A DNA stretch of 36,148 nt from Verrucomicrobiota bacterium (GTDB taxonomy: Bacteria > Verrucomicrobiota > Verrucomicrobiia > Limisphaerales > UBA11358): assembly GCA_028872915.1 (NCBI GenBank), contig JAGWNY010000032.1, positions 1 to 36,148 on the forward strand, read 5' to 3'. The notes beneath the pieces are model-generated. The model worked only from the letters and a program-made list of their open reading frames with translations, had not been told where the DNA came from and did no database searches. The translations under genes and the position numbers were made by a program. How positions within the stretch are numbered: the stretch's first letter is position 1; each line of letters begins with the position of its first letter. This document shows, one piece after another, positions 4,942 through 35,189 of this stretch.

Positions 4942-4964
4942 ACCCGCTTTGAACAATTTTAACG

Positions 4965-5708
4965 ATGATTGAAGCCCGCGATTTGAAGAAAAGTTTCGAC
5001 GCCCAGCCCGTGCTCGATGGCGTGAGCTTTGAGATCGAAACGGGCGAATCGGTCGCCATCATCGGGCGCAGCGGCTGCGGCAAAAGCGTCCTTTTGAAGC
5101 ATCTGGTCGGACTCCTCAAACCGGAGTCGGGCGCCGTGCTCATTGACGGCGAGAACATCGTGCCCATGAACGAACGGCAATTGCTCCGGGTGCGCCAGAA
5201 GTTCGGAATGGTCTTTCAAAGCGCCGCGTTGTTTGACTCCATGACCGTCGCCGAAAACGTGGCCTTTGCCCTCCGGCGCAATTCGCGCCTGTCGGAAGCG
5301 GAGATTGCAAGGCGCGTCGCCCATGCCCTGGACGTGGTGAACCTGCCGGGCACCGGCGACAAATCCCCGGCCGAATTGTCCGGCGGCATGCGCAAACGCG
5401 TCGGACTGGCTCGCGCCATCGTTTATGAACCGCGGATTTTATTATATGACGAGCCGACCACCGGCCTCGACCCCATCGTATCCGACAGCATTGACCAGTT
5501 GATGGTCCGCGTTCGGGACGAATTGAATGTCACGTCCGTTGTCGTCACCCATGACATGCGCACCGCGCGCCGCGTCGGCCATCGGGTCGTCATGTTGCAT
5601 CAGGGAAAGGTCCAGGCAAACGGCATGCCCGACCGGGTTTTCGATTCCACCGACCCCATTGTTCGGCAATTCGTTGACGGCGTTGCCGATGCCAGGGAGC
5701 CGTCCTGA
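4965..5708 (+). CDS. mlaF: MlaF-family ABC transporter ATPase
   Basis: 247 aa. All ATPase motifs are present: Walker A GRSGCGKS (34-41), Q loop at VFQSAALFDSMTV, signature LSGGMRKRVGLARAI (138-152), Walker B ILLYDEPTTGLDP and H-loop H196 (VVVTHDM). The AALFDSMTVAENVAF stretch and the LSGGM signature are typical of the MlaF branch. It drives lipid transport through the permease encoded 23 bp upstream. The pair forms a two-gene unit followed by a long non-coding region. The ATG at 4965 is the first in frame and aligns with the family start. Confidence 0.95.
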   Translation: MIEARDLKKSFDAQPVLDGVSFEIETGESVAIIGRSGCGKSVLLKHLVGLLKPESGAVLIDGENIVPMNERQLLRVRQKFGMVFQSAALFDSMTVAENVAFALRRNSRLSEAEIARRVAHALDVVNLPGTGDKSPAELSGGMRKRVGLARAIVYEPRILLYDEPTTGLDPIVSDSIDQLMVRVRDELNVTSVVVTHDMRTARRVGHRVVMLHQGKVQANGMPDRVFDSTDPIVRQFVDGVADAREPS

Positions 5709-9919: not shown

Positions 9920-9948
9920 CCGGCAACAGGGACGCGAGATTAAAATGT

Positions 9949-11877
9949 ATGAGAGAGGAATTTGAAAAGTTGGCGGCGGCAGGAAAAATTGAAGCGCGGC
10001 ACATAGGACCGTTGACGCAATTGGCGGAAAGCGGGTGCTGCCAGCATAGAAGTTGGGGCTTTGGGAAAATCCGGTCGGTGGACACGGTGTTCGCCCGATT
10101 CACGATAGATTTCCCCGGAAAAGCAGGCCACACGATGGATCTGGGATTTGCCGCCGAGTCGCTCAAAGCGATTCCCAAGGACCACATCGTGGCGCGCAAG
10201 GCGAATGACCTTGAAGGCGTGCGCCGTCTGGCGGCGCATCATCTGGACTTGATCAAGCTCGTGCTCAACAGCTTCGGCGGCAAGGCGACGGCCGACCAGG
10301 TGCAGCAGACGCTCACACCGGAGGTGATTCCCGACGATTGGAAGAAATGGTGGGAGACGGCCCGGCGCGAAATGAAGAAAGACGGGCATTTCATCGTGCC
10401 CGGGAAAAAGACCGAGCCGATTGTGTATCAGGCGCAGGAAACGTCGCTGGAGGAGCGTTTGCTGACTGACTTCCGAAAGGCCAGGGGCTTGAAGGCGCGC
10501 GTGGCGGTGGCGGGTGAAATTTTGAAGATGGCTGATGACCTGACGAACAAGGGCGCCGTGGCCAACGAAGCGGTTTCCGCGCTGAACAGCGAGATTGCAT
10601 CCCACCAGCGCACGCAGCCCGCCGTGGCGCTGGAAGCAGTGTTCGTGCGGGAGGATCTTCGCGCGGCGGCGGGACTTGCGCCCGCGGCGGAGGAAATCAC
10701 CGAGGCCCAGGTCTGGCTCCAGGAAAACGTCAAGCCCGGTCCGCTGCTGGACCAGCTTCCGTCCGCGCGTCATGCGCGCGCCCTCGAGTCGTTCAAGGCG
10801 GCGCATCCGGAGCGGTGGCACGAGATTTTGATCGGCTCAATCAACGTGGTTCCGGCGCGGCTGGTCAGGGAGATGGCCGGATTGCTGGTTCGTGAAGGGC
10901 GGCTGGAATTGTTGAAGGACGCCGTGGCCCGGCTCATCAGCCAACACGGCGCCGGGAGCGAATTGCTGCTCTGGTTTGGCCGCGAACGCAACGAGGATTT
11001 TGTGGACATACTTGGGCCGGAAGTCTTCCGCGCCATGCTGACGGCCATGGAACGGGATCAGTTCAACGAAAAACGCTCGAATCGCCTGCGGGATTTCATC
11101 ATGGAGGACCAGGAGTTGCTGGGCGAACTGACGGCGTCGGCGGACATTGAAGTCATCAAGGACCTTACCCGCGCCCTGCAGCTTTCGACTGTTTTCGACG
11201 ACATGGACAAGCGCTCGCTTCTGGCGCGGCTTGTCAAGGCGCATCCGGCCGTCCAGTCCCTCGTGAGCGGCGAGCAGACCCGGCAGGACGCGACGTGGCT
11301 CGTTTCGTGGGAAAGCCTCGAACGCCGCCGGGCCGAATACCAGGAGCTTGTCCAGAAAAAAATCCCCGCCAACTCCAGGGAGATCGCCATTGCGCGCAGC
11401 TACGGCGACCTGCGCGAAAATCACGAGTACAAGGCCGCCAAGGAAATGCAAAAGGTTCTCATGCGCCGCAAGGACGAACTGGAAAACCAGCTTGCCCGCG
11501 CCCGCGGTTCCGATTTTTCCAACGTCCGGACGGATATCGCGGGGATTGGGACCATCGTGGAAGCCACGGACCTGGGCGGCGGCCAGCGTGAAACATTCAC
11601 CATCCTCGGCGCGTGGGACTCCGACCCGGAGAGGGGCGTCATCAGCTATCTCTCGCCGATCGGCGCGGCGCTCCTGAACCGCAAAGTCGGCGACGAAGTG
11701 GAATTTGACCTGCACGGCGGCAAACACCGCCATCGGATCGAGAAAATCGGGGCGGTCCGGCAGGCGCGATCCGGCGCGGATGCGCCCGCTGCGCCCCAGC
11801 CGTCCTCAGCCGCCTCGCCTGCTCCAGAGCCAGAGCCGGCAGCCGAACCGCCGACGGCGCCGGTTTCAAATTCTTGA
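9949..11877 (+). CDS. greA: Transcription factor GreA with long N-terminal extension
   Basis: 642 aa from ATG 9949 (MREEFEKL); the frame continues upstream to 9832, inside the divergent rsmB, and ATGs at 9910 and 9913 are alternatives. The last 190 residues are GreA/GreB: a coiled coil whose tip GDLRENHEYKAAKE carries D487 and E490, the two acidic residues needed to stimulate RNA cleavage in backtracked RNA polymerase, then an FKBP-like C-terminal domain (GIGTIVEATDLGGG, LSPIGAALLNRKVGDEVEF) and a Pro/Ala-rich tail. Ordinary GreA is about 158 aa. The 450-residue front part is helical and of unknown function; Chlamydiae also have a GreA of about 700 aa. The 3' end overlaps rluB by 4 bp. Confidence 0.9.
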   Translation: MREEFEKLAAAGKIEARHIGPLTQLAESGCCQHRSWGFGKIRSVDTVFARFTIDFPGKAGHTMDLGFAAESLKAIPKDHIVARKANDLEGVRRLAAHHLDLIKLVLNSFGGKATADQVQQTLTPEVIPDDWKKWWETARREMKKDGHFIVPGKKTEPIVYQAQETSLEERLLTDFRKARGLKARVAVAGEILKMADDLTNKGAVANEAVSALNSEIASHQRTQPAVALEAVFVREDLRAAAGLAPAAEEITEAQVWLQENVKPGPLLDQLPSARHARALESFKAAHPERWHEILIGSINVVPARLVREMAGLLVREGRLELLKDAVARLISQHGAGSELLLWFGRERNEDFVDILGPEVFRAMLTAMERDQFNEKRSNRLRDFIMEDQELLGELTASADIEVIKDLTRALQLSTVFDDMDKRSLLARLVKAHPAVQSLVSGEQTRQDATWLVSWESLERRRAEYQELVQKKIPANSREIAIARSYGDLRENHEYKAAKEMQKVLMRRKDELENQLARARGSDFSNVRTDIAGIGTIVEATDLGGGQRETFTILGAWDSDPERGVISYLSPIGAALLNRKVGDEVEFDLHGGKHRHRIEKIGAVRQARSGADAPAAPQPSSAASPAPEPEPAAEPPTAPVSNS

Positions 11878-15050: not shown

Positions 15051-15848
15051 ATGAAGATTTCCGGTTTTCCGCAACCGTTCACGCCGCGCGGCGTCGCGGC
15101 GTTTGCGCGGGAGGGTTTGGGTATATTGCTGATGGCCTGGTTATTGGCGGCGCTGGCGGCCGGCGCGGCCTCGGCGTGGTGTTTGCAGAAGAATTGTTTC
15201 TCCGTGGCCGGCGCGGCCATCGAGCGGCTGCCGGACGCCGGGGATATATCGTTTGGGCGCCTGCATTGGCGGGGAGAATCGCCGGAAATGCTGGTCGAGG
15301 GGCGCGTGCTGGCGGTGGACGTGGACCTGGATCATTCCGGGGTTATCCGTTCGACGTGCGACGGGCAGGTGGAGTTTGGCGCAAAATCCATGCGGGTTTA
15401 CTCGCTGATCGGCTATTGGGAGGCGGCCTATCCGCCGCATGGTTATATTCCGTTCAATCGTCCGGCGCTGGAACCGCTTTGGAACGCGTGGGCGCCGTTG
15501 CTGCCGATCTTCTCGGCGGCGGTGATCGCGATTGGATTGCTGTTGTGCTGGACCGTTCTGGCGGCGGTGTATTTTTTTCCAGTCCGGCTCGCGGGCTTTT
15601 TTATGAACCGACATATAAACCTGATGGCGGCGTGGAAACTCTCCGCCGCGGCCCTTTTACCCGGGGCATTGGTGATGACCGGCGGCGTGCTGCTTTACAA
15701 CGCCGGTTGGTTGCAGTTGGCGGCGTTTGGCGGGTTTTTTGTGGCGCATTTCGTCATTGGCTGGATTTACGCGGCCATGAGCCTGGTCTTCGTTCCGAGG
15801 GCCACAGGCGCGCCGCCAAAAGGGAATCCGTTTAAAAAGAAGCGGTGA
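15051..15848 (+). CDS. Hypothetical integral membrane protein
   Basis: 265 aa, ATG 15051. Hydrophobic helices at about 24-43 (GILLMAWLLAALAAGAASAW), 148-170 (PIFSAAVIAIGLLLCWTVLA), 175-186, 202-222 and 225-247 suggest four or five membrane passes, with a soluble extracytoplasmic segment at about 50-140 (WRGESPEMLVEGRVLAVDVD). It ends in a basic tail NPFKKKR. No family recognised. The alternative frame at 14954-15835 is Arg/Gly-rich and has the look of a shadow, whereas this frame has normal membrane-protein composition. It stands alone between the folD unit and a 443-bp gap. Confidence 0.65.
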   Translation: MKISGFPQPFTPRGVAAFAREGLGILLMAWLLAALAAGAASAWCLQKNCFSVAGAAIERLPDAGDISFGRLHWRGESPEMLVEGRVLAVDVDLDHSGVIRSTCDGQVEFGAKSMRVYSLIGYWEAAYPPHGYIPFNRPALEPLWNAWAPLLPIFSAAVIAIGLLLCWTVLAAVYFFPVRLAGFFMNRHINLMAAWKLSAAALLPGALVMTGGVLLYNAGWLQLAAFGGFFVAHFVIGWIYAAMSLVFVPRATGAPPKGNPFKKKR

Positions 15849-16291
15849 AACAGCGCAGCCGGCTTCGCCAAGGCCGCGGCGCTGGGCCGGGAGGATGGCG
15901 ACGGGTAGTCATCAGGCACCGGTTTCTCAATTTCGTATCGCTCGCCAAGAGATTCATCAACGATGCAATCGCGCGGTTTGGTTGCACAGGTGAACTTGAG
16001 AAGTTGGCTCCAAATTCAGCTCCGCCTGGATGTCGCCAATTTGGGACATGCCGCGCCTGGCAACGCGGCGATATTGCGGGCTGATTTCTATTCCGAGAAA
16101 ACTTCTCCCGAAACGGGCGGCGGCAACGGCTGTTGACGGACATTTTTTTGTATTTTCGGGAAAAACCGAAGCAAAAGCATTGTTTTCTTTGAACGGAAGG
16201 CGGGGAAATTGGCTCGAAGACTTCGAAATTTGCCCCAATGGATAAGATTGCTTTGATTTTCGGGGGCGGATCGTAATCTTTAACGGACACA
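15849..16291. other. Intergenic region upstream of the membrane-system cluster
   Basis: 443 bp without a supported gene; the frames in it look non-coding. Its right part is A/T-richer than its surroundings (for example 'catttttttgtattttcggg'). A weak promoter candidate is TTGATT (16253-16258) with TAATCT (16274-16279), 15-bp spacing, placed just 12 bp before the GTG start at 16292, which would give a nearly leaderless mRNA. Confidence 0.35.
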
Positions 16292-17266
16292 GTGCTGAAA
16301 TTTTTCACCATTTCCGCGAATGCCTTCATGGAATTGATCCGGCAGCCGGTTTTTCTGCTGCTGATGACGGGATCGGTCTGCTTTGAACTCTTTCTGGTTG
16401 TGCCTAACTACTTTGCTTTTGGGGATGAGCCGAAACTGGTTGAAAATTCGGTGCTGGCGGCGATGCTGTTGTCGGGATTGCTTGGGGCGGTGTTGAGCGC
16501 CTCGGCGTCGCTGGCGCGGGAAATTCGGAGTGGCACGGCGCTGGCGGTGCTTTCCAAACCGGTTGGCCGCGCGCAATTTTTCCTGGGAAAATTTGCCGGT
16601 CTGGCCGCCGCGCTGACGCTGCTGACATACGTCAACACCGTTGGCGTTTTGACGGCGAGCCGCATGGCGTTTGATGCGTATGGGAAGACCGATCTGCCGG
16701 CCATTGGAATTTTTGCCGCCGGCATCGCGCTTGCTTATGCGTACGGCGGCTTCACCAATTTTTTTCTCCGGCGGCCATTTGTGAGCAACGCTACGCTTGG
16801 CCTTGTCGTCACTTCGACGCTGGCGGCGGCGGTGGTCTTCAAATTCACGGTGCAAATGGAAAGCCTGGACACGGTTGCCCGCGTGAACTGGAACCTGTTG
16901 CCCGCGGCCATCCTGGTTCTTTTCGCGCTTTGGATTCTCGCGGCGCTGGCGCTGGCCTGTTCCACCCGCCTGGACACCATTCCGACGCTGGCTATTTGCT
17001 CGGCCTTTTTTCTTGCCGGCCTGATGTCTGATTATATCTATTCCACGGCGGGCGGGAGCCTTGAACACGCGGGGCCATGGTGGGCGTCGGTTCTTTACAC
17101 GGTTCTTCCAAACTGGCAGCTTTTCTGGGTCGGCGATGCGATTGACACAGGCCAGAGCACTTTTCAGTGGGGATATGTAGCGAGGGCATTGGGATACGCA
17201 GTTTGCTATGGCGGGGCGGCGCTGGCGATTGGAACGGCCCTTCTCGAAGAACGCGAATTGAGTTAA
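16292..17266 (+). CDS. ABC-2 type transporter permease
   Basis: 324 aa, GTG start at 16292. Multiple hydrophobic helices across the whole length (about 5-25, 55-75, 100-120, 130-150, 170-190, 208-228, 235-255, 295-315). The segment LAREIRSGTALAVLSKPVGR then FFLGKFAGL is the typical ABC-2 permease loop that docks the ATPase. The same motif (RDIEECQMQVVASKPVARWQ, then GKWLG) occurs in the permease at 24549-25943. It opens a run of eight same-strand genes and lacks its own adjacent ATPase; the only ATPase of the ABC type in the cluster is at 23326. I infer these form one exporter with two permease halves. Substrate unknown. Confidence 0.8.
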   Translation: MLKFFTISANAFMELIRQPVFLLLMTGSVCFELFLVVPNYFAFGDEPKLVENSVLAAMLLSGLLGAVLSASASLAREIRSGTALAVLSKPVGRAQFFLGKFAGLAAALTLLTYVNTVGVLTASRMAFDAYGKTDLPAIGIFAAGIALAYAYGGFTNFFLRRPFVSNATLGLVVTSTLAAAVVFKFTVQMESLDTVARVNWNLLPAAILVLFALWILAALALACSTRLDTIPTLAICSAFFLAGLMSDYIYSTAGGSLEHAGPWWASVLYTVLPNWQLFWVGDAIDTGQSTFQWGYVARALGYAVCYGGAALAIGTALLEERELS

Positions 17267-17324
17267 AAGCGCCCCAAAACAGCCGAGGCGGCAACGATAT
17301 CCAAAACCCGCAAGGCGGAAAATA

Positions 17325-19190
17325 ATGGAACGACAGACACAAAAGAACGGCCTGGTGAATCTGGCGGCAGCGGTGATTGTCTTCATCGCGGCGGTTGCGG
17401 ACACGGTTTTTTCCAGTTCGCTGGCCGGGGAGGGGGCGTCGGTTTTTCTGGGCGTTGGGGCGCTGGCGGCGTTTGCGAGCTGGTTCCAGATGCGGCTGGC
17501 TGAAAACGAGGGCCTGGAAAAGCTCGAAGTTGCGGAAATGGCGCGTTTGCGGGGCGAAACCGCCTTGTTTGAGTCAAAGGAATCCGAATTATATCCGGCG
17601 CGGCGGGCGCGGGAACAGTTCGAAAAATTTTTGGTTCCCGGCATTGCGGTGGTGCTGTTCATTCTGGAAGGCGGGGCGGCGTGGGTGCTTTGGCGGTGGA
17701 CGGGCGAAAGCACGTTGGTGATTCCTTCGGCGCGGGCGGTGCCGGCGCTGTCGTTGTTCGCCATTTTTGGGCTGGTCCTGTTTCTGATTGGCCGGTTTTC
17801 AGTGACGATGGCGGGGCTGGAGGATCATCGGCTGTTGCGGCCGGGGGCGAGTTTTCTGCTGGCTGGGGCATACATGTGCTGCCTGGCGGCGCTGGCCATC
17901 GCCGGCGTGGCGACGCAATTTCCGCGGGCGGATTTCTGGGTGGCGCGGGCGTTTTGCGTGCTGCTGGGCATCATGGCAGCGGAGACACTTTTGACGCTGC
18001 TGCTGGAGATTTATCGTCCACGCGTCCAGGGGAAAGTGGCGCGGCCGCTTTACGACAGCCGGATTGCGGGCATCCTGGCGCAACCGGAGACCTTATTGAC
18101 GACGGCGGCGCAGACGCTGGACTACCAGTTTGGCTTCAAAGTTTCCGAAACGTGGTTTTATCAACTGGCGAAGGAAAACCTGCCGGCGCTGGCGCTGGCG
18201 CAATTTGTGGTCTTGATACTTTCGACGTGTATCGTGTTCATCGAGCCGGGCGAGCAGGCGATTGACGAGTATTTCGGCAAACCGGTGGCGGTGTTGAGTC
18301 CCGGTGTCCATTTGAAGTTTCCCTGGCCGGTGGACAAGGTTTACCGGTATCGGACGGACCGGATACAATCCTTTACGGTTGGTTCACAACTCACGGCGCA
18401 ACAGCAACAGGAAAACGTCATACTCTGGAGCACGCCGCACGGACTGGAGGAGAATTTCCTTGTCGGTTTCAAGCCCACCGCGGTGATCGGGGGCAATGAC
18501 GGAACGCAAAGCACGTTGAAAGCGCCGCCGGTGAGCCTGGTCAACCTGGGGATACCGGTTCAATTCCAGATCACGAACGTGATGGATTGGGCGTATAAAA
18601 ACGCCGATCCGACGAATTTGCTGGACGATTTGGCGACTCGCGCGGTGATTGACTACCTCGCCGGCGTGGATTTGCTGGATTTCCTGACACATGGGCGGTT
18701 GGATGCGGCGGTCCGGCTGCAGGGGCGCATCCAGGCGGCGGCCGATGATCGGGGACTTGGGGTGAGAATTCTTTTTGTGGGTCTCCAGGACATTCATCCG
18801 CCCGTGCCGGTGGCGGCGAGTTTTGAAGATGTCATTGGCGCGGAACAGAAGATGATTGCGGCGACGAACGACGCGACGTCGGAAGCAATTCGGACGAATG
18901 CGCTGGCGGGGGCGGACGCCTTTGCGGACGTGAACCTTGCGGAAGCCGACGAAACGCAGGTGGAAACGGCGGCGTTTGCGACGGCGGCGCTGTTCACCAA
19001 CCAGATTCCGGCGTTTGAAGCGGCGCCTTCGGTTTATGAGCAGAGGGTGTATTTCAACATGTTCGCCAGCGCGACGGCGCAGGCGCGAAAGTACGTTTTG
19101 CTGGCGACGAACACGGATGATTCGGAGGTGTTTGACCTGCGGGACACCATTTCGCAAAGCCTGTTGAACAATTTATCCGCGCCGAAGTGA
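17325..19190 (+). CDS. SPFH/band-7 protein with seven-helix N-terminal domain
   Basis: 621 aa, ATG 17325. About seven hydrophobic helices occupy residues 8-305 (for example 8-28, 34-55, 103-125, 140-160, 170-195, 202-225, 285-305). An SPFH domain follows (about 308-560): VFIEPGEQAIDEYFGKPVAV, LSPGVHLKFPWPVDKVYRY, a long beta-rich section and VRILFVGLQDIHPPVPVAAS. The C-terminal helical part is Ala-rich. HflK/HflC normally have one membrane helix, so the polytopic head is unusual. SPFH proteins assemble into large membrane rings or microdomains around partners such as the FtsH protease. The next gene starts 6 bp downstream and is HflC-like. Confidence 0.85.
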   Translation: MERQTQKNGLVNLAAAVIVFIAAVADTVFSSSLAGEGASVFLGVGALAAFASWFQMRLAENEGLEKLEVAEMARLRGETALFESKESELYPARRAREQFEKFLVPGIAVVLFILEGGAAWVLWRWTGESTLVIPSARAVPALSLFAIFGLVLFLIGRFSVTMAGLEDHRLLRPGASFLLAGAYMCCLAALAIAGVATQFPRADFWVARAFCVLLGIMAAETLLTLLLEIYRPRVQGKVARPLYDSRIAGILAQPETLLTTAAQTLDYQFGFKVSETWFYQLAKENLPALALAQFVVLILSTCIVFIEPGEQAIDEYFGKPVAVLSPGVHLKFPWPVDKVYRYRTDRIQSFTVGSQLTAQQQQENVILWSTPHGLEENFLVGFKPTAVIGGNDGTQSTLKAPPVSLVNLGIPVQFQITNVMDWAYKNADPTNLLDDLATRAVIDYLAGVDLLDFLTHGRLDAAVRLQGRIQAAADDRGLGVRILFVGLQDIHPPVPVAASFEDVIGAEQKMIAATNDATSEAIRTNALAGADAFADVNLAEADETQVETAAFATAALFTNQIPAFEAAPSVYEQRVYFNMFASATAQARKYVLLATNTDDSEVFDLRDTISQSLLNNLSAPK

Positions 19191-19196
19191 TTTTTT

Positions 19197-20138
19197 ATGA
19201 AACGGAATATTATAACCATCGTTATCGGGGCCACGCTCGTGATCATCGTTGCGCTGCTGCTCTTTGTATTTCAGGTGCGGCAGTCGCAAGTGGCGATCGT
19301 GACGACGTTCGGCAAGCCGGTGCGAAGCATTACGGAGCCGGGCGCATATTTCAAATGGCCCTGGCCGATCCAGAAAGTCTATATTTTCGACCAGCGCGCG
19401 CAGAATTTCACGGGCAAGTTTGAGGAGTCCCAAACGGCCGACAGCAGCATGATTTTGACTAGCGTCTATGTGGGCTGGCATATTTCCAACGGGATGCGCT
19501 TTCTGGAAGTGTTCCGGGGCGGTTCGATTCCGGCGGCCCAGCAAATGCTGGAACACATGCTGCGCTCGGCGGACCTGGCCGTGGTGGCGAATCACGACAT
19601 GGCGGATTTCGTGAATCCCGATCCGGGCCGGTTGAAATTCAACGCGATTGAAAATGAGATCCGGCAAAACGTCCAGAGCCAATTGAGCACCAACAATTGC
19701 GGGATGAGCCTGGATTTCCTCGGGTTCAAAAGAATCGGCCTGCCCGAAGATGTCACGGAAGCCGTCTTTACGCGTATGAAATCCGAACGGCAGGAACTCA
19801 TCAGCAAGTATCAGTCTGATGGCGACGCCGAAGCGGCGAAAATCCGTTCGGCGGCGGAGCGCCAGGCGGCGGCGGTGATGGCGCGTGCGAATGAAGAGGC
19901 GATCGGGATTCGCGCGCAGGGCGAACGCGAAGCGGCGAGCACTTACGGGGTCTTCGAGCAAAATCCGCAATTGGCTGAATTTCTGCTGCGGATTGACGCG
20001 CTGCAACGCTCGATGAACCGGAAGACGACGCTGATCTTTGATGAGCGCCAGCCTCCGTTTGACCTGTTCATGCACCTGCCGACCAATGCGCCCGCGGCTG
20101 CATCGGCTGGCAAAAATGACACGGCGTCCGGGCAATGA
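19197..20138 (+). CDS. hflC: HflC-like SPFH protein
   Basis: 313 aa, ATG 19197, six bases after the previous stop. One N-terminal helix (about 5-25, IITIVIGATLVIIVALLLFV) anchors an SPFH domain (FQVRQSQVAIVTTFGKPVRS, EPGAYFKWPWPIQKVYIFD, then DSSMILTSVYVGWHI). The C-terminal coiled coil (SERQELISKYQSDGDAEAAK onward, then AAERQAAAVMARANEEA) matches HflC. HflC with HflK forms a membrane cage around FtsH in E. coli; whether FtsH is the partner here is unknown. The gene overlaps the next by 4 bp. Confidence 0.88.
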   Translation: MKRNIITIVIGATLVIIVALLLFVFQVRQSQVAIVTTFGKPVRSITEPGAYFKWPWPIQKVYIFDQRAQNFTGKFEESQTADSSMILTSVYVGWHISNGMRFLEVFRGGSIPAAQQMLEHMLRSADLAVVANHDMADFVNPDPGRLKFNAIENEIRQNVQSQLSTNNCGMSLDFLGFKRIGLPEDVTEAVFTRMKSERQELISKYQSDGDAEAAKIRSAAERQAAAVMARANEEAIGIRAQGEREAASTYGVFEQNPQLAEFLLRIDALQRSMNRKTTLIFDERQPPFDLFMHLPTNAPAAASAGKNDTASGQ

Positions 20139-21211
20139 ACGAACACGACCATCCACATTCGCCGGCGGCCCCGGACGTTCAGGACGCCGACACGCAGGCA
20201 TTGTCGGATGCGTTGCGCAGCAGTTTCACGATTGTGAAATTTCTGATGGCGGTCATGATGATCGCCTTCTTCGCCTCGGGATTTTTCATCGTCGGCCCTT
20301 CGGAAAAGGCAATCGTCCTTCGGTTCGGCAAGCCGGTCGGCCAAGGCCGGAACGTGCTTCTGGGGCCGGGTTGGCATTGGTCCTTCCCGTATCCAATTGA
20401 CTCTGTCATCCACATTCCGATCTCGGAACGGCAGATGGTGCAATCCACGACGGGCTGGTATTACGAGACGGCGGCCGAGGAAGCGGCCGGAACCCCGCCA
20501 TCGGCGGGCAACGGGCTGGACCCGGCCCGCGATGGCTGCGTGATTACGGCGGACCGGGACATCATCCACTCGCGCGCGACGCTTTACTATCACATTGACG
20601 ATCCGGTGGCCTACATATTCAAGTTTGTTTCCGCGTCGAACGCGGTTCAAAACATGCTCGACAACGCGCTGCTCCAGACGGCCGCGCATTTCAAGGTGGA
20701 CGACGCTCTTTACACGGACCAGGCTGGATTCCAGGACGCGGTGCAGCGGCGCGTGGGCGATCTGGCGGAGGCGGCCGGGCTGGGGATCGTGGTTGACAGC
20801 TGCAACGTCGCGAACGTTCCGCCGCTGCAATTAGCCGCCATTTTCAGCCAGGTGACCGAGACGCGCGAACAGCGCAACACGACGATTTACGACGCGCGAA
20901 GCGACGCTGAAAAAACGCTTGCCAACGCCGGGGCCAAGGCGGCCGGCGCGGTGGACGCGGCTTATTCGGCCCAGACGAATTATCTGACCCGAATATTTGC
21001 GGATGCCAACACGTTCACCAAACTCCAGCCCTATTACAAGGCCAACGCGTCGTTGTTCGCGCAAGAAATTCTGGTGCCGGCGATGGGCGAGGTCCTGACG
21101 AACGTCGAGGACACCATCTTTTTGCCGCCGCGCGCGGATGGCAGCGCGCGCCAACTGCGGCTGATTATCAACCGTGAATTGCCTCCGCCAAAACCGGCGG
21201 CAGGTTCGTGA
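20135..21211 (+). CDS. hflK: HflK-like SPFH protein
   Basis: 358 aa, ATG overlapping the hflC stop by 4 bp. An N-terminal acidic cytoplasmic stretch (about 1-34) precedes one helix (about 38-56, FLMAVMMIAFFASGFFIVG). The SPFH domain starts with GPSEKAIVLRFGKPVGQGRN and VLLGPGWHWSFPYPIDSVIH, then continues with DRDIIHSRATLYYHIDDPVA. A coiled coil follows (TREQRNTTIYDARSDAEKTL onward) and the tail DTIFLPPRADGSARQLRLII. HflK usually has a longer Gly-rich front; this one does not. It is the third consecutive SPFH protein in the cluster. Confidence 0.85.
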   Translation: MNEHDHPHSPAAPDVQDADTQALSDALRSSFTIVKFLMAVMMIAFFASGFFIVGPSEKAIVLRFGKPVGQGRNVLLGPGWHWSFPYPIDSVIHIPISERQMVQSTTGWYYETAAEEAAGTPPSAGNGLDPARDGCVITADRDIIHSRATLYYHIDDPVAYIFKFVSASNAVQNMLDNALLQTAAHFKVDDALYTDQAGFQDAVQRRVGDLAEAAGLGIVVDSCNVANVPPLQLAAIFSQVTETREQRNTTIYDARSDAEKTLANAGAKAAGAVDAAYSAQTNYLTRIFADANTFTKLQPYYKANASLFAQEILVPAMGEVLTNVEDTIFLPPRADGSARQLRLIINRELPPPKPAAGS

Positions 21212-21264
21212 ACGTGACGCCGCCTTTTTTGACAACCGCGAATGGTCCATCATAGATTCCAACC

Positions 21265-23322
21265 ATGCAAGTTACATCCCTTTTAAGCCGCCACGGCGGG
21301 CACGAGCATGAGCACGACGATTCATGCGGCTGCGGGCACGATCATGAGCATTCATCCGTTCATTTGTGGCAGGCGGTGGCGGGCATCGTTCTCGTTCTCA
21401 ATGCGTTTATCGTGGATTGGCTGTTTTCGGAAGGCAGCACGGTGGCGAGCTTTAGCGCGTTTTTCGGGGCGATCATCCTGATTTATCCGATTGTGGTGAC
21501 CGCGGTGAAGGATTTGCGGGCGGGCCGCCTGAGCATCAATGAACTTGTGGCGGTGGCGGTGCTGTTCGCATTCGCTTCGGGAGCGCTGGGGATTTCGCAG
21601 GGGCAAAATTCGTCGCTGTTTGGGGCGCAGCCGAGCGCCGGCTATAAGATGGCGGGCCTGATTGCTTTTCTGATGCTGATGGGGGAAGTGATTGAAACGC
21701 GGACCGCGGAAGGCGCGCGGACATCCATTGAATCGCTGATCCAACTGACGCCGACGAAGGCGCGACGCCTCAAGCCCGACGGGAACGAAGAGGAGATCGG
21801 GGCGAGCGATTTGAAGGTTGGGGACGTGATCCGCATCCGGCCTGGGGACAACGTGGCGGCGGACGGGGTGATCGTGAGCGGCCAGGGGTCTTTCAACCAG
21901 GCGACGATTACCGGGGAATCGCTGCCGGCGGAAAAGAAGGCCGGCGATGATGTTTTTGCCGGCACGCAAAACCTGACGGGCCTGCTGGAAATCCGTGTCA
22001 GCCGCGCCGGCGAAGATACAACGCTTGGGCGGGTGCGCGCGCTCATACTGGCGGCGGAGAAGACGAAGCTGCCGATAATGAAGATCGTGGACCAGTACAT
22101 GGGCTATTATACGCCTCTGGTGCTGGTGATTGGGGCGCTGGTGTGGGGTTTTTCACACGACATTTACCGAGTCATTGCGGTTTTTCTGGTTTCGTGCCCG
22201 TGCGCCTTCATCCTGGCGACGCCGACGGCGATGGTGGCCGCGCTTTCGGCGGCGGCGCGGCTGGGCATTCTGATAAAGAACGTGGCGGACATCGAGGCGG
22301 CCTCGCGCATCAACGCGTTTGTTTTTGACAAGACCGGCACGTTGACCACCGGCCAGTTGGCGGTCAATCGCCTGGCGCCGCTCGGCGAGGCCAAGCCCGC
22401 GGAACTGCTTCGGCTTGCGGCTTCGGCTGAGAAATACAGCAACCATCCCACCGCAAAGGCCCTGGCGAAGCTCGCGACGGAAGCGGGCGTTCCGCTCACG
22501 GAGCCGGTGGATTTTTCGGAAGCGGCCGGCCGCGGCGTCAAGGCGAATATCGGCGGGGCGGCGGTCCTGGTTGGGCGCGCCCAATGGCTGAAGGACAACG
22601 GAGTGGATTCGGATTTTGAAAAGTCGGTTGACCTGAATGAAGCGGAAGGCTGGAGCCTGATTTTTGTCGCGCACAACGGCCAGTGCGTGGGCTGGGTGGG
22701 TTTGCAGGATGGGACGCGGGCGGAAGCGAGGGAATCCCTGGTTGAATTGAAGGAAAGCGGGGTGCGGCGCATCGCGATGATTTCTGGCGATCGGCAGCCC
22801 GTGGCGACCCGCGTGGCGGCCGAGATCGGCTGTGAAGAAGCCCGGGGGGATTGCCTGCCGCAAAACAAGGTTGAATTCGTGCATGCGATCAAAGCCAGGG
22901 GCTATCGGGTGGCGGTGGTGGGGGACGGCGTGAACGACGCGCCAGCGCTTGCGGCCGGGGACATCGGCATTGCGATGGGCGCCGCCGGGAGCGAAGTGGC
23001 GATCCACAGCGCGACCATAGCCCTGATGAACAATGATCTCCGCCGCCTGCCCTTTCTGGTGAGACTTTCGAGAAGCACGCGCACGGTCATCAACCAAAAT
23101 TTCATTTTCGGCGTCTGCTTCATCATCGTGGGCCTTTCGGCATCGGCCTTCGGTTTTATCGGGCCGGTGATGGCGGCGGTTCTGCACCTGAGCGGCACGT
23201 TCATCGTGATTTTCAACAGCGCGCGGCTTGTTCGCAAGGGGGAGGAGATGGAACATTTCCAATCCGACACGGCGCGTGCCCCGGGCCGGGTTTCAGGCGC
23301 CCTGGCCGCGCGGACGGCGTGA
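21265..23322 (+). CDS. P1B-type heavy-metal transporting ATPase
   Basis: 685 aa, ATG 21265. A short N-terminal His/Cys-rich tail (about 10-32: HGGHEHEHDDSCGCGHDHEH) takes the place of the usual HMA domain. Membrane helices follow, then TITGESLPAEK (actuator), the metal-site CPC at 311-313 (SCPCAFILATPTA), D355 in DKTGTLT (phosphorylated), H394-P395 (SNHPTAK) and GDGVNDAPAL (553-562). These are complete for an active P1B pump. The last helix has LHLSGTFIVIFNSARL with H641, S643 and T645; it lacks the Lys/Asp pair of ZntA-type pumps and the Met-Ser of copper pumps, so metal specificity is unclear (Zn, Cd, Co or Cu all possible). It sits 53 bp after hflK and 3 bp before the ABC ATPase. Confidence 0.92.
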   Translation: MQVTSLLSRHGGHEHEHDDSCGCGHDHEHSSVHLWQAVAGIVLVLNAFIVDWLFSEGSTVASFSAFFGAIILIYPIVVTAVKDLRAGRLSINELVAVAVLFAFASGALGISQGQNSSLFGAQPSAGYKMAGLIAFLMLMGEVIETRTAEGARTSIESLIQLTPTKARRLKPDGNEEEIGASDLKVGDVIRIRPGDNVAADGVIVSGQGSFNQATITGESLPAEKKAGDDVFAGTQNLTGLLEIRVSRAGEDTTLGRVRALILAAEKTKLPIMKIVDQYMGYYTPLVLVIGALVWGFSHDIYRVIAVFLVSCPCAFILATPTAMVAALSAAARLGILIKNVADIEAASRINAFVFDKTGTLTTGQLAVNRLAPLGEAKPAELLRLAASAEKYSNHPTAKALAKLATEAGVPLTEPVDFSEAAGRGVKANIGGAAVLVGRAQWLKDNGVDSDFEKSVDLNEAEGWSLIFVAHNGQCVGWVGLQDGTRAEARESLVELKESGVRRIAMISGDRQPVATRVAAEIGCEEARGDCLPQNKVEFVHAIKARGYRVAVVGDGVNDAPALAAGDIGIAMGAAGSEVAIHSATIALMNNDLRRLPFLVRLSRSTRTVINQNFIFGVCFIIVGLSASAFGFIGPVMAAVLHLSGTFIVIFNSARLVRKGEEMEHFQSDTARAPGRVSGALAARTA

Positions 23323-23325
23323 ACC

Positions 23326-24552
23326 ATGGATATGATGACTGAAGCCGGCCAAAGGCCCGAAACCGGGAAAGGCGCGTCCGAAGCGGTTGTTTCGGTGCGG
23401 GGCCTGACGAAGATTTTCAAGGACTTCTGGAACCGCCCGAAGGCGCGGGCGGTGGACAGGGTGGATTTTGACGTGTTCCGCGGGGAAGTGTTTGGCCTGC
23501 TTGGCCCGAACGGTTCGGGCAAGTCCACGACTGTGAAGCTTCTGCTTGGGCTACTGAACCCGACACGCGGACATATCCAGGTGTTCGGACATTCGCCGCG
23601 GCACGTGCGCACGAAGGAGCGGATCGGATATTTGCCGGAGGAATCGTATTTGTATCGGTACCTTGATTCGCGGGAGACGCTGGACTTCTTTGGGAATCTT
23701 TTCCAGATCAGCAAAGGGGAGCGGAAGAATCGCGCGGAACAATTGCTCGAAATGGTGGGCCTGGGCAATACCCGCAGCCGGGCCGTGGGCGAATTTTCGA
23801 AAGGGATGCAGCGGCGGATCGGGCTTGCGCAGGCGCTGATTAACGATCCGGACCTGGTGATTTTGGATGAGCCGACTTCGGGTCTGGATCCGATTGGCTG
23901 CCGCGAAGTCAAGGACTTGATTCTTGCCCTGGCCCGCCGGGGCAAGACGGTTATTTTGAGCAGCCATCTGCTTTCGGACGTGGAGGACGTGTGCAATCGG
24001 GTTGTGATCTATTATGGCGGGCGAATCCAGGCATCCGGCTCCTTGAAGGAATTGCTCGCCGAACCGGACACGCTGCAAATCACCACACCTGTGCTGCCGC
24101 GGGCAACGCTGGAACGGGTTCTGCAGATCGTTCGGGCCGACGTTGGCAGCGGAGAGGTGCGGGTGGACAACCCGACACAAAATCTCGAAAGCTATTTTCT
24201 GGAGGTGGTGCAAAAGGCGCGCGAAGCGGCGCATGACACCAGCGGCGCGCAATCGGGGGCGCGCGTGGCCGCCTACCTGCGCGGCGGGTTGGAGCAGCAA
24301 CCCGAGGAAGGCGGCGCCGAAAAAATACTCGAAAAGCTTGCCCTGCCCCCGGCGGCTCCGGCCGCTCCGGCGGCGGCGGTATCCGGACCGGAGGAAGGGA
24401 GGGTGGATGAAAAGAGACTTGAGGCGCTTGCGGGCGTCCGGCCCGCGCCCGTCCAAAAGCCGTCCCAAACGGCGCCCGAAACAAAGACCGACGACCTGTC
24501 CAAGGCCGATGAAAAATTGTCGGCGCTGCTTGGACGGAAAAAGCAAGGTTGA
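23326..24552 (+). CDS. ABC-2 exporter ATPase with Pro/Ala-rich C-terminal tail
   Basis: 408 aa, ATG three bases after the P-type ATPase stop. The ATPase domain (about 20-245) has Walker A GLLGPNGSGKST (57-68), signature FSKGMQRRIGLAQA (157-170), Walker B LVILDEPTSGLDP (177-189) and H-loop H214 (LSSHLLSDVE). The PEESYLYRYLDSRETLDFF segment after the Q-loop position is typical of ATPases paired with ABC-2 permeases. Beyond it, about 160 residues form a helical/variable section (245-325) and a Pro/Ala-rich linker ending in a Lys-rich tail (ALLGRKKQG). Such ATPases usually end near 300 residues. Overlaps the next gene by 4 bp; probable partners are the permeases at 24549 and 16292. Confidence 0.9.
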   Translation: MDMMTEAGQRPETGKGASEAVVSVRGLTKIFKDFWNRPKARAVDRVDFDVFRGEVFGLLGPNGSGKSTTVKLLLGLLNPTRGHIQVFGHSPRHVRTKERIGYLPEESYLYRYLDSRETLDFFGNLFQISKGERKNRAEQLLEMVGLGNTRSRAVGEFSKGMQRRIGLAQALINDPDLVILDEPTSGLDPIGCREVKDLILALARRGKTVILSSHLLSDVEDVCNRVVIYYGGRIQASGSLKELLAEPDTLQITTPVLPRATLERVLQIVRADVGSGEVRVDNPTQNLESYFLEVVQKAREAAHDTSGAQSGARVAAYLRGGLEQQPEEGGAEKILEKLALPPAAPAAPAAAVSGPEEGRVDEKRLEALAGVRPAPVQKPSQTAPETKTDDLSKADEKLSALLGRKKQG

Positions 24553-25943
24553 AAGGTCCGGTCGTGCAAAGAATCATTGCCATCAGCGGTTTGACATGGA
24601 AGGCGGCGATCCGCTTCCGGCTGTTTCTTGTGGTGGCCGTTCTTCTGGTACTGGCGGTCGCGGGTCTGCCACTGGTCATCGAGAGCGATGGTACCGCGCG
24701 CGGCTTTGCGGAAATCATACTGACGTACACGTTGAGCGTGACGACGGCGCTGCTGGGACTGTGCACCTTGTGGCTTGCGTGCGGCACGCTGGCCCGGGAC
24801 ATTGAGGAATGCCAGATGCAAGTGGTTGCGAGCAAACCGGTGGCGCGCTGGCAAATCTGGATCGGCAAATGGCTCGGCATCGTTACGCTGGACGCCGCGC
24901 TGCTCATTCTTACCGGCGGGTGCATCTACGGCCTCATGGAATGGCGGGCGGCCAGTCTGCCGGCGGCGGAACAAAAGAACTTGCGCGAACAGGTGCTGGT
25001 GGCCCGCGGCGCGGCCAGTCCACCCGGCGTCCAGGCGGAAATTGAGGACAGGACGGCGCAAATTCTCGCCGAACGGCTTAAACAAAATCCGGGCCTGGCG
25101 AACTTATCGGAGGCGGACAAGGCGGATGTCGTCAATCAAATCCGTTCGCAGGTGGAATCGGGTTTTGAATTGGTACCGCCCGGTTATTCGCGGCAATGGC
25201 GGATTCACCTTGGGGTTGCGAAGGATTTTCTTCGAAACAAGCCGATGCAGTTGAAGATTAAATTCAATTCCGCGGGAAGCCCCTACATCAGCTATTCGGG
25301 TTATTTTGCCGTTGGCGATCCTACCACCGGGAACAACTGGCAAAGCGGACTGATGACGGGCCTGGCGCCGGGTCATTTCCATGAGTTTTCCATTCCGGCC
25401 AATCTTTTTGACACGAACGGCATCGTGAACATCGTCTTTTCCAACCCGAACGATACGGCGCTCCTCTTTCCGACCACGGACGGCATCCAGGTCCTCTATC
25501 CTGAAGGGGGTTTTGCGATGAACTTTGCGCGGGCGCTTGGGGTGATTTTTTGCTGGATGGCGTTGCTGGCGGCGCTCGGTCTGGCGGCTGCCAGCTTTCT
25601 GTCATTCCCGGTGGCCGCGTTTGTTTCACTGTCCCTGCTTCTCATCGCTTTTTCGTCTGGCACGCTGTTTGATGCGGTGGCGATGAGCGGCTTCGGTTCC
25701 AGTCCAAATGAGGTTTCCATCGGCGACCGGATTTTGATTCCATTATTCAAGGGCATACTCGCGGTGACGGATCTGACACACACAGTTTCGCCCATTGACC
25801 GTCTGAGCACGGGGTACGCGATTTCCTGGACGACGCTTGGCGTCACCTTCTTGCGGGTGGTTTTGGTGCTGGGCGGCGTACTCGCGGTGGCGGGGATAGC
25901 GATGTTTTATCGGCGGGAACTGGCCGCGGCGCAAAGCCAGTAA
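24549..25943 (+). CDS. ABC-2 permease with large extracytoplasmic domain
   Basis: 464 aa, TTG start overlapping the ATPase stop (4 bp). Three hydrophobic helices lie before residue 135 (about 22-40, 55-78, 108-130), with the ATPase-docking loop ARDIEECQMQVVASKPVARW at about 80-100. A soluble insert of about 185 residues (about 135-320) follows, with a charged helical front (LREQVLVARGAASPPGVQAE) and a beta-rich back (LKIKFNSAGSPYISYSGYFA). Three or four helices close the protein (about 325-375, 425-455). The insert may bind the exported substrate or a periplasmic partner. The docking-loop motif links it to the permease at 16292. Confidence 0.82.
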   Translation: MKGPVVQRIIAISGLTWKAAIRFRLFLVVAVLLVLAVAGLPLVIESDGTARGFAEIILTYTLSVTTALLGLCTLWLACGTLARDIEECQMQVVASKPVARWQIWIGKWLGIVTLDAALLILTGGCIYGLMEWRAASLPAAEQKNLREQVLVARGAASPPGVQAEIEDRTAQILAERLKQNPGLANLSEADKADVVNQIRSQVESGFELVPPGYSRQWRIHLGVAKDFLRNKPMQLKIKFNSAGSPYISYSGYFAVGDPTTGNNWQSGLMTGLAPGHFHEFSIPANLFDTNGIVNIVFSNPNDTALLFPTTDGIQVLYPEGGFAMNFARALGVIFCWMALLAALGLAAASFLSFPVAAFVSLSLLLIAFSSGTLFDAVAMSGFGSSPNEVSIGDRILIPLFKGILAVTDLTHTVSPIDRLSTGYAISWTTLGVTFLRVVLVLGGVLAVAGIAMFYRRELAAAQSQ

Positions 25944-25952
25944 GATGGGACG

Positions 25953-27479
25953 ATGAATGCCCTGACAAAAAAGATACTTTTGACGTTGGCGGCTGTGGCG
26001 CTTCTGGCGGGCGCGGGCCGGTTCCAGGGATTGTTGAACCGTGATCGGGCGGCCCTCAAATTGACCATTTCCACCCCGCTGCGCGACGCGCCGCCGGTTC
26101 TTGCTTTTTCGACGGTGGCGCTGGGAGGTTTTCGGGGGTTGATCTCGAATTTCCTGTGGATGCGGGCGGATCGGCTTCAGCAGGCGGACAAGTTTTTCGA
26201 GGCGGTGCAATTGGAGGACTGGATCACTGACCTCGAGCCTCATTTTGCCGAGGTTTGGGCGTTTGAAAGCTGGAACATGGCTTGGAACATTTCGGTAAAG
26301 TTCAAAGACGCCAAGGACCGCTGGCGCTGGGTGCAGCACGGGCTGGAGATGCTCCGGGATAAGGCCCTGAAGTATGATCCCGATTCCGTGATTGTTTACC
26401 AGCAACTTGCGTGGATCTTCCAATTCAAGATGGGGGCCAACGTTGACGACGCCAATCGCTATTACAAGCAACAATGGGCGGAAGCGATGACGCCGTTTTT
26501 CGGTCCCTACGGCACGAACATCGCCCATCTCGTCCACCCGGTGACGGCCGCGGACCAGGCGGAAGCCGCGACACTGCGCGAAACCTACAAGATGGACCCG
26601 GCGCTGGTCCAACAGGTCAACCGGCAATATGGCCCGCTGGACTGGCGTTTGCCGGAGGCCAGCGCCATTTATTGGGCCGTCAAGGGATTGCAGGTGCTTA
26701 AAAATCACCCGGATAAAAAGGACCCCGCCTACATCGTGATGCTGCGCCGGGCCGTCTTTCAGTCCATGTCACAAGCCTTCAAGCATGGCCGGATCATCGC
26801 CAATCCTTACGTTCAAGGGATTGAACTGGCGCCGGACCTCGATCTCATTCCCAAGGTCAACGATTCCTATCTTGAGCAAATCAAGGAGGACCCAGGCGAC
26901 ACGACGATTCCCGATGCCCAACGCTATTTCCTGGCCGATGCGGTTTATTTCCTTTACGAAAACGACCGCGTCACGGAAGCCGCGCATTGGTACAAATATC
27001 TCGTGAAGAAATTTCCCGACCTGCCTCTCATCCAGGACAAGCTGGATTCCCTTCCCAAAAACCTGACGTTGAACGAATACGTCATTGAGCGGGTGCAGGA
27101 GGACATCGGCGAGACGTCACAGGACCGGGTGGCGGCGGCGATGGAGGCCCTGCTCACTCACGCCTACCTGGACCTGGCGATCGGCCAAAATTCGCGGGCC
27201 ACGGGCTACGAATTGCTCGCCCAACAGGTTTATGATCATTATCAGGCGACCTGGGGCGAAAAGTATCGCCGCGCGATTCTTCCTCCAATGGCCGACATCA
27301 AACGGTACGTCCTGGATCAACTTCTTGATCCGGCAAAAAACACCATTCCCTTTGCGGCCCGCGCGGCCATCCGCACCCAACTGCAAATGCCGCCGGAAAC
27401 CAATTCCGCGGCCCCGTTTGCCATTTCGACCATTACGAACGCGCCCTCTTCCGGTTCCGGCACAAATTCGGCGCGCTGA
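25953..27479 (+). CDS. Membrane-anchored helical protein, TPR-like, unknown function
   Basis: 508 aa, ATG nine bases after the permease. One N-terminal helix (about 6-25, KKILLTLAAVALLAGAGRFQ) looks like a signal anchor. The rest is soluble and mainly helical, with spacing and Trp/Tyr/Ala placement that recall tetratricopeptide-like repeats (FLWMRADRLQQADKFFEAVQ, EVWAFESWNMAWNISVKFKD, VIVYQQLAWIFQFKMGANVD, DAVYFLYENDRVTEAAHWYK), and a Ser/Thr/Asn-rich end. No family recognised. As the last gene of the cluster it is probably an extracytoplasmic partner of the transporter or SPFH complex. The cluster ends here; the next gene is convergent. Confidence 0.75.
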   Translation: MNALTKKILLTLAAVALLAGAGRFQGLLNRDRAALKLTISTPLRDAPPVLAFSTVALGGFRGLISNFLWMRADRLQQADKFFEAVQLEDWITDLEPHFAEVWAFESWNMAWNISVKFKDAKDRWRWVQHGLEMLRDKALKYDPDSVIVYQQLAWIFQFKMGANVDDANRYYKQQWAEAMTPFFGPYGTNIAHLVHPVTAADQAEAATLRETYKMDPALVQQVNRQYGPLDWRLPEASAIYWAVKGLQVLKNHPDKKDPAYIVMLRRAVFQSMSQAFKHGRIIANPYVQGIELAPDLDLIPKVNDSYLEQIKEDPGDTTIPDAQRYFLADAVYFLYENDRVTEAAHWYKYLVKKFPDLPLIQDKLDSLPKNLTLNEYVIERVQEDIGETSQDRVAAAMEALLTHAYLDLAIGQNSRATGYELLAQQVYDHYQATWGEKYRRAILPPMADIKRYVLDQLLDPAKNTIPFAARAAIRTQLQMPPETNSAAPFAISTITNAPSSGSGTNSAR

Positions 27480-33726: not shown

Positions 33727-33812
33727 CGGTTTTTATTTAATGTCAAGCTAAACACAAAACAATGAGCCGACGCAATTATTGTGGCTGCTCGCAACCAAAC
33801 AAACAAAGAAGT

Positions 33813-35189
33813 ATGAAACTGAACATTCCTAGAGTCCGGATGCTGGCCGTCCTGCCAGCAACGTTGTTGCTCACAATCTCGGCACAAGCGCAAATCGGCG
33901 GCGGTTGGAGTGTTTACACACCCAGCGAACGGTTTGAATATGAATCCAATGACATCGGTCATTCCATCAGTCCTCCACCCAGTTATTTCAATAACGGCTA
34001 CTGCGCCTTTACCAGAACCAGCAAGACCGACAGGTTTCAATTGTTGACGCACAATTCCAACCGCGCTGAAATTCGCGCCAACGATGATTATTCCACCGGT
34101 TCACATCAGTTTCAGGCTTACATCTTGATTCAACCGCCTACAACCGGAGAAACCGTTCATCAAATCTTTAACGGTCCCGCCGGGCCGTGGCTGCTGATTA
34201 AAGAGACGTCCGCTTACAACGGCAGCCTTCATGTCGGCGGGGCAACCGCTTCGCTGGCGACCAATCTTTACGGGCATTGGTTCCGGTTCAATAGCATCAA
34301 CGACATGAGCGACGACAAGACTTACCTCTATGTTAATGGGCAACTGGTTTGGACCGGAACAAATCCCGGTGGAACGTTTTATACCAAATATGGCACCTAT
34401 GGAACACATAGCGATGCGGATACGGCCGACATTATCTTCAGCAATGTGGTTTTCTACACCGGCGGCACTCCTACCGGCTGCAGTCCCACGCCCATCGTGC
34501 CCTACCTCCAGGTCAACGGCGGAGCCTGGCAGCAGACCGACACCGCAACCATTACTTCCGGTCAAAGCGTAACCTTCGGCCCGCAGCCCACCACCGGCGG
34601 CTCCTGGAGTTGGAGCGGTCCCAACGGCTTTAGCTCGACCTCCCGCCAGGTCACCGTCAACAACATCACCAGCAGCGGCAACTACACCGCCACTTACATC
34701 AATTCCTGCGGTGATTCCAGCTCCGACACCTTCGTCATCACCGTCAGCGGCGGCGGCATTGACACGACCGCCACTTACCATATCCAAAACGAAGCCAGCG
34801 GCCTGGTGTTGAATAATCAAGGCTCGACAACCGACGGCACCGCCATTACGCAGTGGTCATCGTCGTCCACTAGCGACAATTTGAAATGGACATTTATCCT
34901 GACGAGCAACGGCTATTATCAAATCAACAGCGTTAAGAGCGGCTTGGACGCCGTGGTGCAAAGCGCTTCAACCTCGCAAGGGGCGGGCATCATCCAATGG
35001 TCGTTCGGTTCGGCGGGCAACGACCAATGGCAGCCGCAGGCGAACAGCGACGGCAGCTACACCTTTGTGAACCTGCACAGCGGCTTGGTGCTTGAGGACC
35101 CCGCTTCCAGCGCGTCCACCAGCACGCAAATGGATCAATGGGGCTCCAATGGTGGCAGCAACCAGAAATGGAAACTGCTGAAACAGTAA
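33813..35189 (+). CDS. Secreted polysaccharide-lyase-like protein with ricin-type lectin, copy 2
   Basis: 458 aa from ATG 33813 (MKLNIPRVRMLAVLP, signal peptide ending near AQA-QIG); the frame opens at 33762. The N-terminal jelly-roll domain (about 27-222) matches copy 1 with moderate divergence (RAEIRANDDYSTGSHQF, VHQIFNGPAGPWLLIKET, YTKYGTYGTHSD). The rest differs: an Ig/PKD-like domain (about 232-320; SWSWSGPNGFSSTSRQVTVN) and a C-terminal ricin-type beta-trefoil (about 328-458) with three Q-x-W repeats (TQWSSSS, IQWSFGS, DQWGSNG), a carbohydrate-binding module. A 19-bp hairpin follows the stop. Confidence 0.82.
   Translation: MKLNIPRVRMLAVLPATLLLTISAQAQIGGGWSVYTPSERFEYESNDIGHSISPPPSYFNNGYCAFTRTSKTDRFQLLTHNSNRAEIRANDDYSTGSHQFQAYILIQPPTTGETVHQIFNGPAGPWLLIKETSAYNGSLHVGGATASLATNLYGHWFRFNSINDMSDDKTYLYVNGQLVWTGTNPGGTFYTKYGTYGTHSDADTADIIFSNVVFYTGGTPTGCSPTPIVPYLQVNGGAWQQTDTATITSGQSVTFGPQPTTGGSWSWSGPNGFSSTSRQVTVNNITSSGNYTATYINSCGDSSSDTFVITVSGGGIDTTATYHIQNEASGLVLNNQGSTTDGTAITQWSSSSTSDNLKWTFILTSNGYYQINSVKSGLDAVVQSASTSQGAGIIQWSFGSAGNDQWQPQANSDGSYTFVNLHSGLVLEDPASSASTSTQMDQWGSNGGSNQKWKLLKQ

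Follow-up and report, generated by a model that had tools for sequence, protein, structure and literature searches.

A conserved, modular eight-gene cluster of Verrucomicrobiota combining three SPFH-family genes, a P1B-type ATPase and a putative ABC-2-like exporter

SPFH proteins are widely held to organise membranes, and to our knowledge few bacterial members have a defined client. In the HflK-HflC-FtsH system of E. coli, two SPFH proteins have a protease as their partner. Prokaryotic SPFH proteins have been split into 12 subfamilies (PMC2636767), in a paper whose main text does not contain the word “ATPase”.

A different association is found at the hmtA locus of Pseudomonas aeruginosa. According to the accessible sections of the literature, the “hmtA-containing cluster” PA2434-PA2439 is raised 5.6- to 14.4-fold on zinc depletion and has a weak Zur site, with PA2437-39 assigned to the HflC/HflK families and PA2435 being HmtA (PMC4542158). 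PA2439 is the first gene of the locus; Zur with zinc shifts its promoter in EMSA, and hmtA mRNA is low throughout and unresponsive to zinc (PMC8531726). This shift is at odds with a review stating that Zur bound every zinc-uptake promoter except that of hmtA (PMC10393844). HmtA is reported as a Zn/Cu importer (PMC8456098), and the same review holds that import by HmtA needs confirmation (PMC10393844). The PA2438 and PA2439 proteins are raised without zinc (PMC11761036), and HflC/HflK-family genes have already been placed in or near the hmtA cluster (PMC4542158; PMC11761036). PA2437-39, which correspond to PA14_33110/33080/33070, are annotated as FtsH modulators (PMC9431628). PA14_33070/33080/33110 are also known as PaFlo5-7, whose deletion has only slight effects: biofilm drops by ~20%, and virulence is reduced in a larva model (PMC13086221). 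The words “HmtA” and “ATPase” are absent from the main text of that paper, and in the accessible parts of the literature that was searched, hmtA is nowhere connected with the SPFH operon of PaFlo5-7, nor are SPFH proteins proposed to hold the pump.

Here we describe a cluster with the hmtA-type composition, a trio of HflK/HflC-family genes plus a P1B ATPase gene, joined to the genes of a putative exporter. The initial annotation of this DNA knew of no characterised machine of such composition. This has to be narrowed: the SPFH trio and P1B half occurs on proteobacterial plasmids and has a partly studied counterpart of the same composition at hmtA, whereas its physical meaning and the link to an exporter are new.

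Layout of the cluster and the proteins it encodes

The window, the whole stretch analysed, comprises 36,148 nt (positions 1-36,148 of the forward strand of contig JAGWNY010000032.1, assembly GCA_028872915.1) from a Verrucomicrobiota bacterium placed by GTDB in Verrucomicrobiia; Limisphaerales; UBA11358. The genome that contains it is 3.19 Mb and 93% complete. Eight open reading frames, A to H, lie on the + strand at 16292-27479, with successive gaps of 58, 6, -4, 53, 3, -4 and 9 bp; the ORF coordinates bear out the gene number, shared strand and spacing first reported. The proposal of an operon-like unit is supported, and judged by their gaps A-H are likely to form a single transcript. Among the promoter-like sites in the region, the strongest (21229-21258, TTGACA, 18, TAGATT, 10/12 match) falls in the D-E gap and could give the pump gene E its own start, in a scan that returned 5 such sites against 3.7 expected, near chance overall. 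No Zur-like palindrome is seen upstream of A in 15840-16300, where the phylum's own motif may differ; the genome has one FUR-family gene. Elsewhere in the window are an MlaE permease and ABC ATPase pair (4162-5708), a 681-aa frame (9832-11877) with C-terminal GreA/GreB elongation-factor domains preceded by ~490 residues without a Pfam family at E 0.01, and a 475-aa protein in which ricin-type lectin domains are repeated (33762-35189).

Three of the genes encode SPFH proteins, with Band_7/SPFH scores of 50.4 bits for B, 84.3 for C and 71.8 for D (cut-off 23.6). C (19197..20138, +, 313 aa) and D (20135..21211, +, 358 aa) each have one N-terminal TM and are HflC-like and HflK-like, respectively. 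B (17325..19190, +, 621 aa) consists of a six-TM domain, a TM helix and an HflK-like SPFH part. The best-scoring model is HflC for C (122 bits against a cut-off of 134) and HflK for B and D (102 and 109 bits, respectively, against 159), so all three fall short of the hflK/hflC equivalog level. In an SPFH tree of 81 rows, 22 each for B, C and D, with warnings on some long branches and odd compositions, every one of the three forms its own clade (support 100/99 for B, 99/93 for C and 100/93 for D), each spanning Verrucomicrobiota and Proteobacteria; the proteobacterial plasmid copies group with the SPFH genes of the window. The canonical clades stand apart (HflK 99/96, HflC 93/77), with HflK as sister to B+D and HflC as sister to C. 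In this tree B, C and D fall outside the HflK and HflC clades, and their scores are below cut-off. Canonical HflK (251-302 bits) occurs in 32 of the 116 order genomes, and 30 of these 32 have a full B as well; the SPFH proteins of the cluster reach at most 178 bits. In the window's own genome, ftsH is on another contig and no HflK exceeds the cut-off in the 93% that is complete. The absence of a protease beside the SPFH genes was confirmed at the locus.

In the predicted model of B, six long helices occupy residues 2-230 and another lies at 277-300, followed by the SPFH part at ~303-594. The earlier label of a seven-helix SPFH protein fits this layout of six helices plus one before the SPFH part. 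By predicted fold, the six-TM domain matches zinc transporters of the CDF type (YiiP, ZnT family). At the sequence level, PF01545 is absent from the Pfam matches of seven B N-terminal parts, and a profile comparison with CDF gives a probability of 0.3%, the CDF profile being thin at 3 sequences. Of 158 B proteins, 152 do not have the CDF metal-site motif [DH]xxx[DH] in the TM2 stretch, and likewise 152 do not have it in the TM5 stretch. The membrane domain is therefore best described as a predicted CDF fold that lacks the CDF metal site.

The pump gene E (21265..23322, +) encodes a 685-aa protein which scores 540 bits on TIGR01525 (cut-off 346) and 448 on the cadmium-family P1B model (cut-off 313.5), and falls just under the copper cut-off (395.8 against 397). 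It has a His/Cys-rich N-terminus, DKTGT, TGE, CPC in TM6 (residues 311-313) and His641 in TM8. With a family model over cut-off, DKTGT and a Cys-bearing xPx in TM6, E has the sequence features of a P1B-type metal ATPase. DKTGT, TGE and HP are intact in all 22 aligned E proteins. CPC is found in 135 of 151 E proteins (window included), 4 being unscored by the pattern; the other 12 lack the full motif (5 VPA, 2 LPC and one each of MPC, IPC, CPV, CPS and SPV), and a soft metal is therefore not assured in every lineage. VPA belongs to other Verrucomicrobiota families (L225, L229, L232, L243, L244), and L225, the sole one aligned, keeps DKTGT; LPC, MPC and IPC occur in L255-L258. The TM8 pattern has His at its first position in 116 of the 122 E proteins that it matched, another 29 being unmatched. 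A tree places 24 E rows on one side of a branch from ZntA, CopA and four own P-type ATPases, the branch being weakly supported (93/59) with few reference sequences.

The remaining genes are exporter-like. A (16292..17266, +, 324 aa, about 7 hydrophobic segments) and G (24549..25943, +, 464 aa) resemble ABC-2 permeases with every match below Pfam gathering scores: A reaches 26.7 bits on ABC2_membrane_2, just under the cut-off of 27.2, and G 20.4 bits on an ABC-2 model, also under 27.2. G has ~200 less hydrophobic residues between its hydrophobic segments. F (23326..24552, +, 408 aa) is an ABC ATPase (ABC_tran, 114 bits); among the best 25 of 189 matches it does best on DrrA- and GldA-type models and reaches none of the listed equivalog cut-offs. 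H (25953..27479, +, 508 aa) has one N-terminal TM and a helical, TPR-like superhelix, and no Pfam or NCBIfam family over cut-off.

Conservation and modularity

The cluster is conserved over most of the order. B (E < 1e-140) is present in 112 of 116 order genomes, in two of them in pieces; among the other four there is a contig-edge fragment (G301), weak matches in two (G346, G358) and none in G361. H is found in 111 of the 116 and has no family model in Pfam or NCBIfam. Of 40 H-anchored loci from the order, 30 contain the full set of eight genes, unbroken in 26 and with a gap of more than 600 bp between E and F in 4. The other ten hold FGH (5), H, GH, EFGH, FGH with an SPFH gene, or FGH listed as FHG; some of these stop at contig ends, and in 7 of the ten genomes (L245-L248, L250-L252) the missing part is recovered elsewhere, whole or mostly. 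Among 80 named B-anchored loci, which are the best 80 of 515 confirmed relatives and are therefore silent on more distant phyla, 49 hold all eight genes; the other 31 include loci cut by contig ends and real splits. The seven genes flanking the cluster in the window (five upstream, two downstream) occur in none of the 30 full order loci, which extend ~0.1-4.5 kb beyond A and ~0.8-5 kb beyond H and so test farther flanking genes in part only. With 30 of 40 order loci intact and the flanking genes at 0 of 30, the eight-gene grouping is not chance. Across 31 full clusters, that of the window among them, median gaps run from -4 to 27 bp apart from E-F (94 bp), sizes that are rough because starts were taken as first start codons. 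Two genomes show additional arrangements: G316 has a second A-F-G-H without B-E (L264, G316:C52) besides a full cluster (L263), and in G319 a canonical HflK/HflC pair comes after F-G-H in the same orientation (L096:1255-5488).

Outside the order, the cluster is seen to be made of separable modules, a core of B-C-D-E and F-G-H (with A). Of 40 B-anchored loci there, 38 keep the order B-C-D-E, and the other two (L236, L242) are incomplete, without E or without D-E. Twelve of the 38 run on to F-G-H without A, 9 end at F, 6 are A-B-C-D-E, 5 are B-C-D-E alone, 3 have all eight genes and 3 take other forms. Diverged B-C-D-E stands alone in other orders of the window's class (L256-L258) and likewise in another class (L255). 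Conversely, 20 H-anchored phylum loci, chosen from the stronger matches, comprise 8 with A-F-G-H and no B-E, 4 FGH, 3 GH and 5 H alone. Beyond the phylum, a tblastn search of plasmids found HflK-like relatives of B, and all eight plasmid loci fetched and scored have B-C-D-E in the same order as the window, with none of A, G or H. Their hosts are five Rhizobium, one Paraburkholderia, one Burkholderia and one Klebsiella, the Burkholderia and Klebsiella plasmids being typed as conjugative; two further Rhizobium records outside these eight have a similar B. Thus a P1B ATPase is the constant neighbour of the SPFH trio in two phyla and on plasmids. Upstream of B-E, the Paraburkholderia locus (L266) has ABC-3 metal permeases and a PCu(A)C chaperone, and a Verrucomicrobiota locus has a CDF (Cation_efflux) gene with a His-rich N-terminus (L218:14744-15739), 235 bp upstream of B on the same strand; other tested genes beside stand-alone B-E loci are mostly not metal genes.

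Co-occurrence was counted in a sample of 288 phylum genomes, for classes other than the window's, with pieces counted and with own-class rows and one weak H row excluded. Among the matches listed, strong H is found in 175 such genomes and type-1 B in 109; all 109 with type-1 B also hold H, and 66 of the 175 with H are without type-1 B. The seven genomes with type-2 B, again among the matches listed, include three with strong H and four with none strong. In the nine B-anchored loci that end at F with no G or H, H lies on another contig or far off in the seven genomes for which its position is listed. Such a distant H alongside B-E-F fits interacting parts better than loose neighbours. Free separation of the neighbours, which would speak against a common machine, is seen in part: the A|B, E|F and F|G junctions can be broken, yet H accompanies type-1 B in 109 of 109 other-class genomes among the matches listed. 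The association of exporter and pump over most of the order and part of the phylum is supported; the cluster is, however, a set of separable modules and no indivisible machine.

Possible organisation and alternatives

A-H is a real, conserved and modular cluster. In the reading that we favour, to which we give an even chance, an SPFH assembly of B, C and D organises the Zn/Cu P-type ATPase E, coupled here to an A-F-G-H exporter. Gene content, order, conservation, the separate SPFH clades and co-occurrence back this reading; from them we infer the assembly of the complex, the metal and its direction, the coupling of the modules and the physical organisation of the exporter by SPFH proteins. The operon would hold two co-selected modules. 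In the first, the HflK paralogues B and D and the HflC paralogue C would build a mixed inner-membrane ring or cage that houses or clusters E in the place that FtsH takes within the HflKC cage. The metal that E carries through this membrane would be a soft one (Zn and/or Cu), and transport may be directed inward, as has been claimed for HmtA. The second module, A-F-G-H, would be an ABC-2-like exporter in which TPR-like H sits anchored on the inner membrane's outer face, and would act next to the SPFH scaffold. In a bolder version, which we think unlikely, a three-part SPFH cage, whose B subunit has the CDF-fold domain lacking a metal site, would surround the pump as HflKC surrounds FtsH and would either pass the metal on to, or gate, an adjacent ABC-2 exporter with a TPR-like periplasmic arm; in some lineages, pumps without the metal cysteines would act on another substrate.

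The modularity itself suggests that B-E could serve metal homeostasis and A-F-G-H envelope export as unrelated functions on one transcript, without mechanical coupling. A-F-G-H occurs by itself in 8 of 20 H-anchored phylum loci, and among 40 B-anchored loci B-C-D-E is by itself in 5 and joined by A only in 6. These counts, the 66 of 175 listed genomes having H without type-1 B, the eight plasmid loci without A, G and H, and the promoter-like site before E all agree with such a division. However, it leaves unexplained why every listed other-class genome with type-1 B also has H (109/109), why F follows B-E in 9 of 40 loci without G or H, with H distant in seven of these genomes, and why 30 full order loci keep the set together while sharing none of the seven flanking genes, and we regard it as somewhat doubtful. 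The trio might instead be the lineage's ordinary HflK/HflC acting on FtsH, with pump and exporter as incidental neighbours, in line with an FtsH encoded elsewhere in a genome with no HflK over cut-off (93% complete) and with the annotation of PA2437-39 as FtsH modulators in the accessible text of PMC9431628. This is very unlikely given the clades apart from HflK/HflC, the 32 of 116 order genomes that have canonical HflK, 30 of them alongside a full B, and a constant neighbour that is a P1B ATPase.

In a plain detoxification operon, E would rid the cell of excess Zn/Cd/Cu while the SPFH proteins did no more than stabilise the membrane; this would suit the scores of E, over the cadmium-family P1B cut-off and just under that for copper. 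CPC is nevertheless absent from E in some lineages, and the TM8 segment of E shows neither the ZntA-type nor the CopA-type motif. Most characterised P1B ATPases are exporters (PMC10393844), but in P. aeruginosa it is starvation for zinc, and not an excess of it, that induces the counterpart (PMC4542158), and its pump HmtA is reported as an importer (PMC8456098; PMC10393844). Simple efflux seems unlikely beside the favoured SPFH-organised pump.

Comparison with known systems

The hmtA locus PA2439-PA2434 resembles B-E in composition and order, clustering a trio of SPFH-family genes (HflK-family, HflC, HflC-family) with the P1B ATPase gene of HmtA. By numbering, and unlike B-E, it has PA2436 between the trio and the pump and PA2434 after the pump, and the accessible literature describes no A-F-G-H exporter there. 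ABC-2 exporters that have an accessory protein, of the Gld, Nos and Drr types, are like the cluster in joining an ABC ATPase to two permeases, which in the cluster are putative ABC-2-like ones; H differs in being TPR-like and outside any Pfam or NCBIfam family. CDF transporters have metal-site residues in TM2 and TM5, which the membrane domain of B lacks, along with any sequence match. Compared with the two SPFH proteins of HflK-HflC-FtsH in E. coli, the window cluster has three, in separate clades, one of which (B) carries an extra six-TM domain; and where E. coli has a protease partner, a P-type ATPase gene adjoins the trio instead. With this ATPase as its constant neighbour, the trio therefore makes the contents of an SPFH cage testable outside FtsH.
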